47,297 nucleotides of DNA, from NCBI RefSeq assembly GCF_025128055.1, contig NZ_JAHLYS010000030.1:1-47297 (forward strand), given 5' to 3'. The stretch is from Synechococcus sp. CS-1329 (GTDB lineage: Bacteria; Cyanobacteriota; Cyanobacteriia; PCC-6307; Cyanobiaceae). This document shows positions 29,408 to 33,510 of the stretch, one piece after another (the first letter of the stretch is position 1; every line of letters begins with the position of its first letter). The translations under genes and the position numbers were made by a program. The notes beneath the pieces were generated by a model. It saw only the letters and a program-made list of their open reading frames with translations. It did no database searches and was not told the DNA's origin.

Positions 29408-29460
29408 GCCCACCCTGCCGGGCCACGGCCGTTCCCGGCCTGAGGTGCCATGATCAACAG

Positions 29461-29725
29461 GTCCGTCCTTGGGCGGACTAGGTGACTCACACCAGTGCTT
29501 CGGACAGCGGTTCGATTCCGCTCAGCTCCATTCCCCGCCTCGGCGGCTTCATCGGGGGGCTGCAATGGTTTCGACGGGGTAAGAGGAGGGTGACTGAAGC
29601 CTGCTCGGTAAGAGCAAATCCGTAACAGCGAACAACATCGTTGCTTTCTCCCGTCAGCCCGCCCCTGTGGCCGCCTGACTCCTTAGGGAGATGGGGTAAG
29701 TCAGCCTTATCACCCAAATGACTCA
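29461..29725 (+). ncRNA. ssrA: Circularly permuted two-piece tmRNA
   Basis: Rescues stalled ribosomes. The order is reversed: the 3' acceptor piece comes first, then the 5' coding piece. The T-arm is AGCGG-TTCGATT-CCGCT (29506-29522), followed by acceptor strand CAGCTCC (29523-29529) with discriminator A (29530) and no encoded CCA. A 25-nt spacer follows. The partner strand GGGGCTG (29556-29562) begins the piece with the GGTTTCGACGGGG tmRNA signature. The resume codon GCG is at 29628-29630; the tag reads ANNIVAFSRQPAPVAA, stop TGA at 29676-29678. Permuted tmRNAs are known from alpha-cyanobacteria and some proteobacteria. Outer ends are approximate. Confidence 0.95.
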
Positions 29726-29727
29726 CG

Positions 29728-29753
29728 GGGGGCTGGAAGGCCCCCTTCCTTTT
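29728..29753 (+). terminator. Rho-independent terminator after ssrA
   Basis: A 7-bp stem GGGGGCT/GGCCCCC around a GGAA loop (29728-29745), followed by TTCCTTTT. It closes the tmRNA gene and separates it from the downstream four-gene cluster. Confidence 0.85.
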
Positions 29754-29877
29754 GGATAAAGCTGAGAGGCGCCCATCTCGGTTTGTGTTGTCGGGTCCTT
29801 CGCAGGAGAGCGGCTCAGAGCAGCCCCGATGTCGCCGATACTGCTGGGAGATCGGTAATGAATCCGCATGATTCGTG

Positions 29878-30879
29878 ATGGCTCGCGGGAACTCTGAGGC
29901 AGCAGCGGCGAACGAGCTCATGGCGGAGCGATTCGGCCGTCTGCTGCGCAGCCTCAAGGAGACCTATGGATGGTCGGCCATTCGCTCCATGCCAGCCCAG
30001 GATCTGATCGTGCTGCTGACGCGATCCAGCCGCAGCGATGAGGATCACGTGGCGGTCGATGCGTTTGGACCCTGGATTCAGCTGGGGCTGCTGGACCTGC
30101 TGTCGGCGCCTCCACGGCAACGCCAGGGGCACTGGAGAAAGCTGTCGGCGGACCTCGGCAGCCCCGCCGCTGTGCTCGAGGCTTCGGCGCAGCGGATGGA
30201 TCGTGTTCTGGCGCTCTCCCGTGCTGATCGGCGCGACCTGCCAACCCCCGCGGCCGTGGCCGCGGATCATTCACCCAGCGCTCCCGCTGGGCGGATCATG
30301 CCCCTGTTGATCGGGGCCGGCGTGCTCGGCATGGCGGCCGGTCTGGCGCTGACCATCCAGATCGGTCGTTACCGGCAGGAAGTGATCCGTCAGCAGCAGG
30401 CCAGCCGCGAACAGAAGGCGGAGCTGGATCGCGTCAAGCGCCAACTCTCCCAGCGCGACCAGGCGGCCGGCCGCTCTGGCTCCGAATCCCCGAGGCGCTC
30501 GCTCGCCCCTGAGGCTCTGCCAACACCAGCCTTGCCTGAAGGGGCTCCCGATCCCCCTGTGCCAGAGCCTTCCCCCTCCCCCACCAGGGCTTCTGGCGAG
30601 CCCGAGATCCCCCGATGGAGCGGCTGCGAGCCGGTGGCGGCCGGCAGCGGGGCGAGCCCCCAGCCCGGTGATCTCTGGTGGCCGGTGGTGGGCCCTCTGA
30701 CCTCCCTGGAGGCGGTCCGCCGTCACTGCCGCGCGGATGCCTTTCGAAACAGAGATGGAAACACGCAGGTGGCCAGCTTTCGCGATCGCTCGGCGGCGAC
30801 GGCCTTCGCCGACCAGCTCAGCGCCGACCCTCAGCACCCCTACACCTTCTACGTGGGTGAGTCCACTCGCTACGACTGA
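29878..30879 (+). CDS. Membrane-anchored protein with SPOR-like C-terminus, first gene of the TolQ/TolR-like cluster
   Basis: A 333-residue protein I cannot assign to a named family. Residues 1-120 are a mostly helical cytoplasmic domain; 140-162 form one membrane helix; 163-196 a coiled coil (RQEVIRQQQASREQKAELDR); 197-262 a Pro/Ser-rich periplasmic linker; and 265-333 a globular end whose TQVASFRDRSAATAFADQL resembles half of a SPOR (peptidoglycan-binding) repeat. A cytoplasm-to-periplasm span beside a TolQ/TolR-type channel suggests a TolA-, TonB- or MotB-like force-transmitting partner; that is inference. ATG at 29878 is used, preceded by an in-frame GTG. The channel gene begins 3 bp after its stop. 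Confidence 0.7.
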   Translation: MARGNSEAAAANELMAERFGRLLRSLKETYGWSAIRSMPAQDLIVLLTRSSRSDEDHVAVDAFGPWIQLGLLDLLSAPPRQRQGHWRKLSADLGSPAAVLEASAQRMDRVLALSRADRRDLPTPAAVAADHSPSAPAGRIMPLLIGAGVLGMAAGLALTIQIGRYRQEVIRQQQASREQKAELDRVKRQLSQRDQAAGRSGSESPRRSLAPEALPTPALPEGAPDPPVPEPSPSPTRASGEPEIPRWSGCEPVAAGSGASPQPGDLWWPVVGPLTSLEAVRRHCRADAFRNRDGNTQVASFRDRSAATAFADQLSADPQHPYTFYVGESTRYD

Positions 30880-30882
30880 ACC

Positions 30883-31707
30883 ATGCCCACGAATCGAGCG
30901 TCACCCTCTGCCGCCAGGGAGCTGCTGCAGCTCCCCCCGCGCCGTTGGATCCGATCCAATAGCTTCACTTCGATCCTGATCGGAGCCACAGCCACGGTGG
31001 TGATCGCGATCATTCTTTTCCCGCTGCGATCCAGCCCTCTGGGGGCCTTCTTCCTGGGCCGCGGCCTGACCCAGCCGTTCACCCTGGCCATTGCCATCAC
31101 GGTGGCCCATTACTGCCTGCTGCGGCTGCTGCGCAGCGGCCGTGAGCGCCGCCTGGTGGGTCGTGACTGGATCCCCTACGGCATGGCGAACCTCCGCCCC
31201 AGCGATGAGGACATCCAGATCCTGCTGGGCCTGATGGGTGGTCGAGACACGCTGATCGGCAACCGCCTGGCCCGGTTGCTGATGTGTTTCAGCGATTCAG
31301 GTTCCAGGGCGATTGCCCGTGAATTGCACCAGGACGACACGGCCCTGACCCAGGCCGAGATCGAGGACAGTTTCCTGGTCACCCGCACCATGATCTGGGT
31401 GCTGCCGATGCTGGGTTTTCTCGGCACGGTGCTGGGCATCTCCGTCTCGATCGGTGGTTTCTCCGGCTTGCTGGCCGATGTCACCGACCTCTCGAAGGTC
31501 AAGGCCGGTCTGACTCAGGTCACAGGGGGGCTGTCCACGGCCTTCGATACAACCCTGCTGGGGATCATCTGGGCGGTGGCCTGCATGGTGCTGATGAGCG
31601 TGGCCGAGCGATCGGAGTACCGGCTGGCCGGGGACCTCGAGGCGACCATCAATGACGACCTATTCCCTCGACTGGCACAGGATGAGACGACCGCGGCGAA
31701 GCTCTAG
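30883..31707 (+). CDS. MotA/TolQ/ExbB-family proton channel subunit
   Basis: A 274-residue membrane protein with four helices at about 28-48, 64-82, 165-192 and 217-240, and a cytoplasmic loop of ~80 residues between helices 2 and 3. The last two helices match the family: LPMLGFLGTVLGISVSIGGF with Thr182, and LSTAFDTTLLGIIWAVAC with Thr223/224. The positions agree with the pore threonines of ExbB and TolQ. Such subunits form a pentamer around a TolR/ExbD/MotB dimer and couple proton flow to movement. Two TolR-like genes follow directly, and no tonB, tolA or flagellar gene is near. Confidence 0.88.
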   Translation: MPTNRASPSAARELLQLPPRRWIRSNSFTSILIGATATVVIAIILFPLRSSPLGAFFLGRGLTQPFTLAIAITVAHYCLLRLLRSGRERRLVGRDWIPYGMANLRPSDEDIQILLGLMGGRDTLIGNRLARLLMCFSDSGSRAIARELHQDDTALTQAEIEDSFLVTRTMIWVLPMLGFLGTVLGISVSIGGFSGLLADVTDLSKVKAGLTQVTGGLSTAFDTTLLGIIWAVACMVLMSVAERSEYRLAGDLEATINDDLFPRLAQDETTAAKL

Positions 31708-32191
31708 GAACGGGGTTGATCTGATCGGCTTCCTCGACATCCTCAGTGCGGTGATGGTGATCGTGCTGCTGGTCATCTCCGTGCTGGCCCTCTCCATCGG
31801 TGTGCAGGGAACCAGCCAGGTTCCAGTTGATTCGCCGGCTCCTGCCAGTCCTGTGGAGTCCGCGCCAGCGCAGGCCAGGCCTGCCGTACCGCGGGTGGAG
31901 ATCAGCACGGTGGATGGGCGGGATGTCACGGCATCCACGGCTTTTCTGCTCTGCAGAGGGGGGCTGTTGGAGCAATTCGACCCGAGCACAGGTCAGAGGA
32001 TCGGGGTCTGGAGCCTTGGCTCTGACAGCGCCGCCGGGGTGGCCCGCGAGTTGGCGGCTGCCAACATCTACCTGGCTGTGGCGGGATCCTGTTTCCCTTC
32101 CCTCGACGCGCTGGTGGAGGCGTTCCGAGCCAATGGGTCGCAGCTGGGTTATGAGCCCATCGGGGAAGACGCCGTGCTGCCATGGGAGTGA
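31652..32191 (+). CDS. TolR/ExbD-like subunit, copy 1
   Basis: A 179-residue protein with a basic N-terminus, one membrane helix (about 26-50) carrying Asp29 in GFLDILSAVMVIVLL, a Pro/Ala linker and a small periplasmic domain (from about 88). The acidic residue at the start of the helix is the proton-carrying position in TolR, ExbD and MotB. The gene overlaps the channel gene by 56 bp from the ATG at 31652, which has GAGG nine bases upstream; the ATG at 31682 is an alternative. The periplasmic domain is not closely alike in copy 2. Confidence 0.78.
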   Translation: MTTYSLDWHRMRRPRRSSRNGVDLIGFLDILSAVMVIVLLVISVLALSIGVQGTSQVPVDSPAPASPVESAPAQARPAVPRVEISTVDGRDVTASTAFLLCRGGLLEQFDPSTGQRIGVWSLGSDSAAGVARELAAANIYLAVAGSCFPSLDALVEAFRANGSQLGYEPIGEDAVLPWE

Positions 32192-32778
32192 AACGTCAGG
32201 CAAGGCGGCGCTCTGGTGGAGCGGAGCTGAGCTTCGACAGCCTGATCGACGTGTTCATGAACGTCCTGGGCGTTCTGATGATCACCGCTGTGGTGCTTGC
32301 CCTGGCGACCCCTGGGCAGCAGAGCCGGCCCCAACCCCAGGCGCCATCGCCGCCGCGCAGCACGCCTGCAGAGCCGGAGCCGGACGTTCCAGCGGTCCGG
32401 CTCTCCTTGCCCCAGGTGCAGAACGCGTCCACACGACCGCTCTATCTGTTGATCACAGGGGATGGAATCCGGCCCTTCTCCACCGATGATCTCGAGACTG
32501 TCGATCGTTATTTTGTATCCAGAGATCTGGGATCAAGTCTGGAGCTGCAACCGATCCCCGGCCGCGTGATGGGTGAGGCTGAATTGCGTTCATGGCTGCG
32601 CCAGCACGACTCTGGCCTTCGTCACGTCACCGCAGCGATCACACCGGAGGGCATTCGCTATTACAGGCAGGTGCGCACGATCGCTGCAGAAGAGGGCTTC
32701 CGCTCGGGTTGGTTGAACCACCAGGGAGACTCCGTGATCCTCGGCAGCAGTGGCCGAACCGGATCTCTGGTTCAGTGA
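32182..32778 (+). CDS. TolR/ExbD-like subunit, copy 2
   Basis: A 198-residue protein with one membrane helix (about 22-43), Asp23 in SFDSLIDVFMNVLG at the expected proton-carrying position, a Pro-rich linker (about 45-70) and a periplasmic domain of ~120 residues (RPLYLLITGDGIRPFSTDD...). It overlaps copy 1 by 10 bp and ends the cluster. Having two different TolR-like subunits with one TolQ-like subunit matches the composition of Myxococcus AglR (TolQ-like) with AglQ and AglS (TolR-like). Orthology is not claimed. Confidence 0.78.
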   Translation: MGVKRQARRRSGGAELSFDSLIDVFMNVLGVLMITAVVLALATPGQQSRPQPQAPSPPRSTPAEPEPDVPAVRLSLPQVQNASTRPLYLLITGDGIRPFSTDDLETVDRYFVSRDLGSSLELQPIPGRVMGEAELRSWLRQHDSGLRHVTAAITPEGIRYYRQVRTIAAEEGFRSGWLNHQGDSVILGSSGRTGSLVQ

Positions 32779-32798
32779 TTCGAGGAGCTGCTCACGGG

Positions 32799-32839
32799 GG
32801 TTCAGGGCTGTGGTGTTGAACCTGAAGGTGACCTGAACC
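32799..32839. terminator. Inverted repeat between convergent genes, possible bidirectional terminator
   Basis: GGTTCAGG (32799-32806) and CCTGAACC (32832-32839) are perfect inverted repeats separated by 25 nt. They lie between the last motor-cluster gene and the convergent thioredoxin-like gene. No T-tract follows, so the terminator call is weak. Confidence 0.3.
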
Positions 32840-32889
32840 TCAGAACTGAATCAAGAATCAGGTGCAGCGGTTGTCAGCGTGCCATCGCT

Positions 32890-33372
32890 TCAGCGGCTGC
32901 TGCTGCCAGCGGTGGCTTTCGTTTTGAAGCCACTCCAGATCGCCAGTTCCTCAATGGTCAACAGGCCCTCCCGGCGCTCACCATCGAGATCCCAGGTGGG
33001 GAAGGCGCGGATCTTGGCCGCCTGGCAGCGTTCCCGCCCGGCCTGCTCCTTGTCGCATTCCACATAGGGGAGACGCCGGCCCGCTTCGGTACCAAACAGG
33101 TTCTTCTGGTGGAAGCAGTGGGGGCACCACCAGGCGCCGTAGAAGATGGCCCCGCGGCTGCGCAGATGCTCCACCAGCGCCTTCTGCTCCGCCGTCGAGG
33201 GGCTCACCGCTTCCCCGAGGCTGCCGCTGGTGCTGCCCGCTGCATTGCCGCCGCGGGCCAGGGCTGGCTGGCGGCTGCTGCCGGCGGCCCCCACCAGCAC
33301 CAGGCTCAGGCCCATCAGCGCCAGGGACAGCAGCCGGGTGGCTCGCCGGTGGCGGGAGGTGGCGATGGGCAT
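32890..33372 (-). CDS. Thioredoxin-fold protein with WCPHC motif (VKOR-associated type)
   Basis: A 160-residue protein with an N-terminal signal or anchor helix (about 12-30) and a thioredoxin fold carrying the redox pair in WCPHC (82-86) and the cis-Pro region AFPTWDLDG (124-131). Extra cysteines at CDKEQAGRERC match the thioredoxin-like domain that is often fused to vitamin K epoxide reductase (VKOR) in cyanobacteria, here standing alone. Likely a periplasmic or lumenal thiol oxidoreductase. I chose the ATG at 33372; a longer frame from 33465 would bury the signal helix. Confidence 0.82.
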   Translation of the reverse strand: MPIATSRHRRATRLLSLALMGLSLVLVGAAGSSRQPALARGGNAAGSTSGSLGEAVSPSTAEQKALVEHLRSRGAIFYGAWWCPHCFHQKNLFGTEAGRRLPYVECDKEQAGRERCQAAKIRAFPTWDLDGERREGLLTIEELAIWSGFKTKATAGSSSR

Positions 33373-33510
33373 GGAATTCCCAGACTCAGGTGCTGCAGAG
33401 GCTAGGGGTGCGTTCGGGCTTCCGCCCTTTCTGGGACCACCCCTTGGAGCCTTTGGCTGGGACACTGGGTCCCTGATGTGTCCACCGCGTTAACCAGTGA
33501 GATTGCCTCG

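Follow-up and report, generated by a model that had tools for sequence, protein, structure and literature searches.

An accessory TolQ/TolR-type gene set with two unlike TolR-like chains and a SPOR-like partner in the picocyanobacterium Synechococcus sp. CS-1329

What kind of machine do four closely packed genes encode when one is TolQ-like, two are TolR-like and the fourth specifies a membrane protein with a SPOR-like end? This question is raised by a locus of Synechococcus sp. CS-1329, studied here within a stretch of 47,297 nucleotides (contig NZ_JAHLYS010000030.1, positions 1-47,297 of the forward strand; the window) from a genome (G000) with a completeness of 99.98%. An earlier sequence-only reading of the window had described four packed or overlapping genes, and the open reading frames (ORFs) at 29875-32778 on the + strand confirm them; the position 29878 from which that reading began is the second codon of the gene A ORF. 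Gene A (29875..30879, 334 amino acids) encodes a single-pass membrane protein with a SPOR-like end, gene B (30883..31707, 274 amino acids) a MotA/TolQ/ExbB channel subunit (Q), and genes C (a 179-amino-acid ORF from 31652, likely start 31682, to 32191) and D (32182..32778, 198 amino acids) the first and second TolR-like subunits (R1 and R2, named by gene order). All four lie on the + strand, with a 3-nucleotide gap or overlaps between neighbours. B, C and D very probably form a motor of the 5:2 type. The fuller proposal, in which a proton-driven B-C-D motor has a mixed axle and gene A provides its output or anchor, is one that we regard as evenly balanced. What is new is that picocyanobacteria have an accessory motor set of the 5:2 type in which two unlike TolR chains occur together with a SPOR-like partner; no paper on the set was found by title or abstract in the open-licence literature on two-TolR sets, cyanobacterial TolQ/TolR, or GAP1-N2/SPOR with TolQ.

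B matches the Pfam family PF01618 (MotA_ExbB) with an E-value of 3.1e-11 and 43.6 bits, above the cut-off of 22.9, and its threonines T182, T223 and T224 are invariant in all ten aligned sequences. The earlier assignment of B to the MotA/TolQ/ExbB subunits with conserved pore threonines is therefore upheld. B is also the sole PF01618 match in its own genome (E 0.001), and a knockout should be clean because the host has no other PF01618 gene.

The two TolR-like chains were each said to carry an Asp near the start of their membrane helix. Both residues, in the motif FLDIL of C (codon 31736-31738, + strand) and LIDVF of D (Asp23, codon 32248-32250, + strand), are found in 9/9 copies of the group of related sets to which the window belongs (the window group). 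Only the numbering in C may have to shift: several close relatives begin the gene at MRRxRR, so that its start may be 31682, which would turn Asp29 into Asp19. In Pfam searches, D reached PF02472 (ExbD) with an E-value of 0.019, under the cut-off, and C gave no motor-like match. An AlphaFold2 model of D (22 sequences, pLDDT 73) predicts a helix at residues 18-42, which includes Asp23, and a domain at 85-187. Among the 50 VIA rows listed for this model, the top four are TolR 5by4 (Z 7.5, root-mean-square deviation 2.3, 81 aligned) and three ExbD structures (Z 6.4, 6.1 and 5.9), while the next is unrelated (Z 5.2); such a predicted ranking fits the gene context. R1 and R2 are homologous to each other (hhalign probability 99.2), and the make-up first described, one TolQ-like plus two TolR-like subunits, stands with the nearest structural neighbours of the D model being TolR and ExbD. 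The threonine-bearing PF01618 channel and the transmembrane helix, Asp23 and TolR/ExbD-like predicted fold of D place the set with the 5:2 motor superfamily, PF02472 not being reached. Profile searches of Q, R1, R2 and A against solved structures returned nothing at E < 0.05.

Q-R1-R2 modules of this type extend well beyond the genus. A profile of ten Q sequences run on 388 genomes of the class separated them cleanly: 29 genomes matched at E < 1e-50 (the own genome included), followed by a gap up to 1e-8, from which point ordinary ExbB-like genes appeared. In species genomes, the best 80 of 162 confirmed loci fell mostly in Planctomycetota, Verrucomicrobiota and Lentisphaerota, with some in cyanobacteria, Myxococcota, SAR324 and others. 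The survey is a sample, with loci picked by the likeness of Q to two peptide patterns, and its 116 loci include some near-duplicates. Of the 116, 94 have two TolR-like genes after Q, 11 have one, 10 have none and 1 has three; the ten without a TolR-like gene include five loci of genus g85, whose genomes are 2.4-2.8 Mb. In genomes of family f26 (L191, L194, L195, L197, L200, L202, L203), Q was likewise seen without an adjoining R, with one R-like ORF at L195, and several of these Q genes adjoin ABC-transporter genes resembling those for branched-chain amino acid or urea uptake. R1 and R2 are not separable by profile because they are homologous and iterated profiles merged. From the window through the other cyanobacteria their C-terminal signatures differ: R1 has G-EP, in most cases GYEP, and R2 has GW with G and Q further on. 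In a tree of Q, the nine rows of the window group form one clade (98/100) that joins the other cyanobacterial-type rows (83/89), and loci L044-L046 form a separate clade; the deep forks are unsure because several branches are long.

The two chains differ at the proton-carrying position. Across the 94 loci with two R genes, the second R always has the Asp (94 of 94); in the first R the residue is Asp 49 times, Ser 36 times, Ala 6 times, Asn twice and Glu once, the Glu row being a miscalled ORF (L117) that was left out of the cluster tally. Taking one row per 60%-identity cluster, the second R keeps Asp in 69/69 and the first R has 39 Asp, 24 Ser, 4 Ala and 2 Asn; these are counts of related sequences and not of independent events. 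Within cyanobacterial-type loci outside the window group, of which one of the 18 (L069) is labelled Chloroflexaceae, the first R carries Ser in 15, Asn in 2 and Asp in 1, and in the window group both R proteins have the Asp (9/9). Where R1 lacks the Asp, a motor relying on it alone could not run in the usual manner; R2 should therefore be part of the axle, and the constant pairing of the two genes together with the Asp asymmetry makes a mixed R1-R2 axle likely. This family lends itself to asking whether axles are mixed and how many proton sites a 5:2 motor needs, because an R1-only axle lacking the Asp could not carry protons by the usual route.

Pairs of unlike TolR genes have been noted before. 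Heterologous tolR pairs in PVC bacteria were reported earlier (PMC12204202). Those systems share with the present set two unlike TolR-like genes placed after one that is TolQ-like, and a separate transducer with a transmembrane, a Pro-rich and a globular part was proposed for them. That transducer has a vWA domain, often carries an SHLS motif and lies downstream, whereas gene A lies upstream, has a SPOR-like end and no transmembrane His. The word SPOR is absent from the main text of PMC12204202, and its section 8 makes no mention of R proteins lacking the Asp. In cyanobacteria, Synechocystis sll0477-sll0479 is presumably an ExbB-like set; a literature search on it listed a single paper, in which sll0477 is named once.

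The AlphaFold2 model of gene A (8 sequences, of which two are truncated and two are related at the C-terminal end only; pLDDT 74) predicts a confident helical N-terminal domain at residues 2-120, a transmembrane and coiled-coil helix at 151-201, a Pro-rich disordered linker at 202-265 and an alpha/beta C-terminal domain at 267-334. This order of transmembrane helix, Pro-rich linker and globular C-terminal domain, seen in both model and sequence, is that of the TonB, TolA and vWA force transducers. Of the earlier description of A, the membrane-spanning part agrees with the model. The SPOR-like end is borderline: the Pfam SPOR match has 21.1 bits against a cut-off of 21.0 (19.5 bits in a six-frame search), and the C-terminal domain aligns to the RlpA SPOR domain with a VIA Z of 3.9, equal to ClpS and SbtB. 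At an E-value of 0.01 the SPOR match is found in 3 of the 8 members of the A family; two of the 8 sequences are cut off before the domain is complete. The position of the Pfam match suggested a circularly permuted SPOR domain, but this was rejected because model and VIA alignment both follow the normal order. Foldseek of the A model against the PDB gave nothing at E < 0.001. Proteins that share the C-terminal domain of A, small and with one hydrophobic stretch, occur in genome G098 and in the own genome. This domain, recognisable by WWPV...QVASF, recurs within the host family at L185 1459-1947 (own genome, contig C32) and at L182 1489-2160.

Presence of the four-gene order in related genomes had been named beforehand as a test, its absence counting as refutation. 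In the host family, B orthologues (E < 1e-60) were found in 8 of 201 genomes including the own, D in the same 8, and A over most of its length in 5 of these (G000, G002, G094, G104, G147). A-B-C-D are contiguous and in order in G094, G104 and G147 and are cut by contig ends in G002, so that the absence named as refutation did not occur; in 4 genomes including the own, A immediately precedes B on the same strand. Against the same-genus genome G002, the ratio of nonsynonymous to synonymous substitution rates (dN/dS) is 0.21 for A, 0.06 for B (115 codons), 0.16 for C and 0.12 for D, with A taken from one contig and B-D from another, which may belong to different copies; dS against G094 was saturated. 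Because its order is conserved and its dN/dS is low, the four-gene set is real and under purifying selection. G002 itself apparently holds two four-gene copies (contigs C5, C9, C13, C76), each broken at the same places, and their ends have diverged around a common middle part, at which the assembly seems to break.

The set is accessory and lies at a variable site (29769-32890) behind ssrA, as follows from the variation of this site and from the lack of a PF01618 match in the other genomes of the genus, where only 2 of 9 (G000 and G002) have one. We propose that B, C and D form a proton-driven motor of the ExbBD/TolQR kind in the inner membrane, in which five B subunits would surround a C-D axle with a single copy of each chain (5:1:1). 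Proton transfer would take place between the B threonine ring and the Asp of D, in this set also that of C. Gene A might act as output or anchor, with the transmembrane helix and coiled coil next to the motor, the Pro-rich linker spanning the periplasm and the SPOR-like end bound to peptidoglycan; the helical cytoplasmic domain would perhaps sense or gate. The set would then be an accessory envelope device, and cell-wall work, movement or defence may be imagined as its roles. Coupling to peptidoglycan through A is plausible, if a little more doubtful than not.

Several points weigh against parts of this proposal. For the TolR-like chains, VIA scores with Z < 8 may by the tool's own caution reflect a common arrangement and are no proof, Foldseek of the D model against the PDB gave nothing at E < 0.001, and R1 and R2 barely match cyanobacterial ExbD in hhalign, where C and D against the canonical form gave E-values of 0.022 and 0.011 and probabilities below 4. 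The 5:1:1 stoichiometry is itself something that we infer, and the asymmetry argument rests on relatives, the window group having kept both Asp residues. For gene A, the SPOR assignment is borderline and the four A sequences have no His in the transmembrane stretch and so no visible SHLS-type TonB/TolA motor-binding motif. B-C-D moreover occur without A beside them in G098, G059 and G123, all of one genus; A has no match at E 0.001 in G059 and G123, and in G098 only a C-terminal-domain match elsewhere. A is therefore not needed everywhere.

Other systems built on related motors offer competing explanations. ExbBD and TolQR have the same pore threonines, Asp helix and TolR/ExbD-like periplasmic fold (predicted for D), and a Ton- or Tol-like importer or outer-membrane stabiliser would agree with that fold. 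The present set differs in its two unlike R genes, in the very distant sequences of C and D, and in a genome without a TonB_C or OmpA/Pal match. All four domain searches gave positive controls in E. coli; at an E-value of 0.001 they found no TonB_C and no OmpA/Pal domain in the genome (TolA and TolB were not searched for), on which ground membership of the Tol-Pal or Ton systems was rejected, though cyanobacterial forms could escape these two models because their controls were negative in Synechococcus elongatus. PF02472 likewise had no match in the genome at 0.001, but this model misses C and D too, so that a divergent TolR could escape it. At the locus, the earlier statement that tolA, tolB, pal, tonB, zorCDE and flagellar genes are not adjacent was borne out. 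With 7 of the 8 other same-genus genomes lacking any PF01618 match, a Ton- or Tol-like role is highly improbable. A motor for gliding or surface movement like AglRQS of Myxococcus xanthus would agree with the set in the number of its genes, one TolQ-like and two TolR-like, and both TolR-like subunits of AglRQS carry the Asp as here (PMC9389320); whether they form hetero- or homodimers was stated as not known in that 2022 review. However, AglQ and AglS match PF02472 strongly, at 6.7e-18 and 3.1e-15 (PMC3169522), whereas C has no match and D only E 0.019. The likeness drawn in the sequence-only reading thus holds for subunit make-up and fails for these sequence matches; membership of AglRQS was rejected, and a motility motor of this kind is hardly to be expected.

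A defence motor working like Zorya, which would sit in the envelope, sense or answer phage attack and be inherited in variable islands, shares with the set a MotA-type channel. The best PADLOC matches of B are to ZorA (4e-8), the site behind ssrA is variable, one copy with gene A (G094) is divergent from HmaA (1496 bits; an HmaB fragment and an IS5 transposase lie beyond), and relatives stand by type III-B/CARF-HEPN, SMODS/SLATT and GAP1-N2 genes. Against this, B scores 25.7 bits with the ZorA model NF033915, whose curated cut-off is 100, and at 274 amino acids it lacks the long ZorA tail. An OmpA domain (PF00691) is absent from A-D at an E-value of 1 and from the genome at 0.001, and in the window the set is flanked by ssrA and ordinary genes, none of the ORFs read by eye being a defence gene. 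Among at least 25 distinct loci viewed, defence genes were confirmed (by record, PADLOC or close similarity) in 5 by raw count (L036, L186, L187, L192, L196); the other 20 are mostly ordinary by eye, L199 and L206 having a restriction-like gene nearby. Zorya membership was rejected on the missed ZorA cut-off, the missing tail and the missing OmpA-type domain, and a Zorya-like role appears unlikely. Working like SiiAB, the set would instead energise or gate the retention of a large surface protein encoded elsewhere in the genome. In G041 and G017, a related Q-R1-R2 set is collinear with genes for HlyD and for an ABC transporter that has a C39 peptidase domain, and convergent to a gene for a cadherin-repeat protein (Pfam was applied to the transporter and HlyD of G041 and to the repeat protein of G017), and this arrangement resembles that of SiiA-F of the Salmonella SPI4 type I secretion system (PMC6272769). 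The comparison is one of gene arrangement. No secretion genes lie beside the window set, the G041 and G017 sets belong to a different Q clade and have a long cytoplasmic tail that B lacks, and no secretion gene adjoins the window-group copies by eye. Such a role for the window set is quite improbable.

Gene neighbourhoods of the wider family point to little-explored uses of proton motors in type I secretion, GAP1-N2 operons and type III-B CRISPR. At L044 3583-11109 and L045 6188-13761, in two genera of the host family, Q-R1-R2 accompanies type I secretion genes next to a giant cadherin-repeat gene; both loci also hold a 100-amino-acid soluble protein and a 165-amino-acid secreted-looking protein, in a SiiAB-like arrangement. 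Within four genes of the module, 115 loci showed a protein of about 1000 amino acids in 26, a GAP1-type protein in 19, a zinc-ribbon P-loop protein (by eye) in 14 and a GYF protein in 14, and these four types occurred in Planctomycetota, Verrucomicrobiota or Lentisphaerota only, among the matches listed. Pfam on one example each gave GAP1-N2 at 6e-23 and GYF_2 at 2.7e-6, and one PVC clade of Q-R1-R2 sits in GAP1-N2 operons. GAP1-N2 marks GTPase-centred conflict systems predicted in PMC7159879, whose main text makes no mention of MotA, ExbB, TolQ or ExbD. One GAP1-N2-type operon, at L102 12771-14503, seems by eye to hold a second TolR-like pair downstream, the first of which has no Pfam match.

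On an Anabaena plasmid (L187 8273-12463) and in G400, the module lies directly downstream of type III-B cmr and CARF-HEPN genes; G510 has the same neighbours by gene similarity. In these three cases (L187, L192 and L196) Q-R1-R2 may represent a CRISPR ancillary membrane unit. A Microcystis plasmid copy adjoins SMODS nucleotidyltransferase, SLATT and helicase genes. A bolder idea can be built on these contexts, namely that Q-R1-R2 constitutes a separate class of proton motor whose axle is obligately asymmetric, one of its chains often being proton-dead, and that several conflict systems have taken it up as their power unit (GAP1-N2 GTPase operons, type III-B CRISPR with CARF-HEPN, and Hma islands); the window set would then be a compact, SPOR-anchored version acting as an immune or stress device on the cell wall. 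We regard this as speculative and rather improbable.

The site of the set is bounded upstream by ssrA, the permuted cyanobacterial tmRNA (29445..29744, + strand, cyano_tmRNA RF01851), with a terminator-like hairpin at 29727-29746, and downstream by a thioredoxin-like gene (32890..33465, - strand; named by eye, no Pfam match) that stands outside the motor. A promoter scan found none. The third-position GC of A-D (0.70-0.82) is slightly low beside that of five neighbour genes (0.80-0.89), which is no strong sign of foreign origin. Carriage by a phage is not supported: a viral-contig scan with B, which detects close relatives only, confirmed none, and PHROGs gave only E-values of 0.015 (A) and 0.008 (D). 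No direct repeat of ssrA, as a mark of integration, was present in the window at E < 0.2 among the self-comparison matches listed. The flanks of ssrA were compared in seven same-genus genomes, the contig of G008 ending too soon. In all seven (L060-L066), the stretch from ssrA to the thioredoxin-like homologue at the downstream boundary measures 2.5 to 15 kb and has no motor gene; a gene for a protein of 278-285 amino acids is present in 7/7, a cyclic-nucleotide-binding-like gene (by eye) in 6/7, and the rest varies. About 12 kb downstream of ssrA in G004 there is a 42-base near-repeat of its 3' part, with transposase-like ORFs between, and because the near-repeat bounds these ORFs, ssrA looks to have been used for insertion in the genus.

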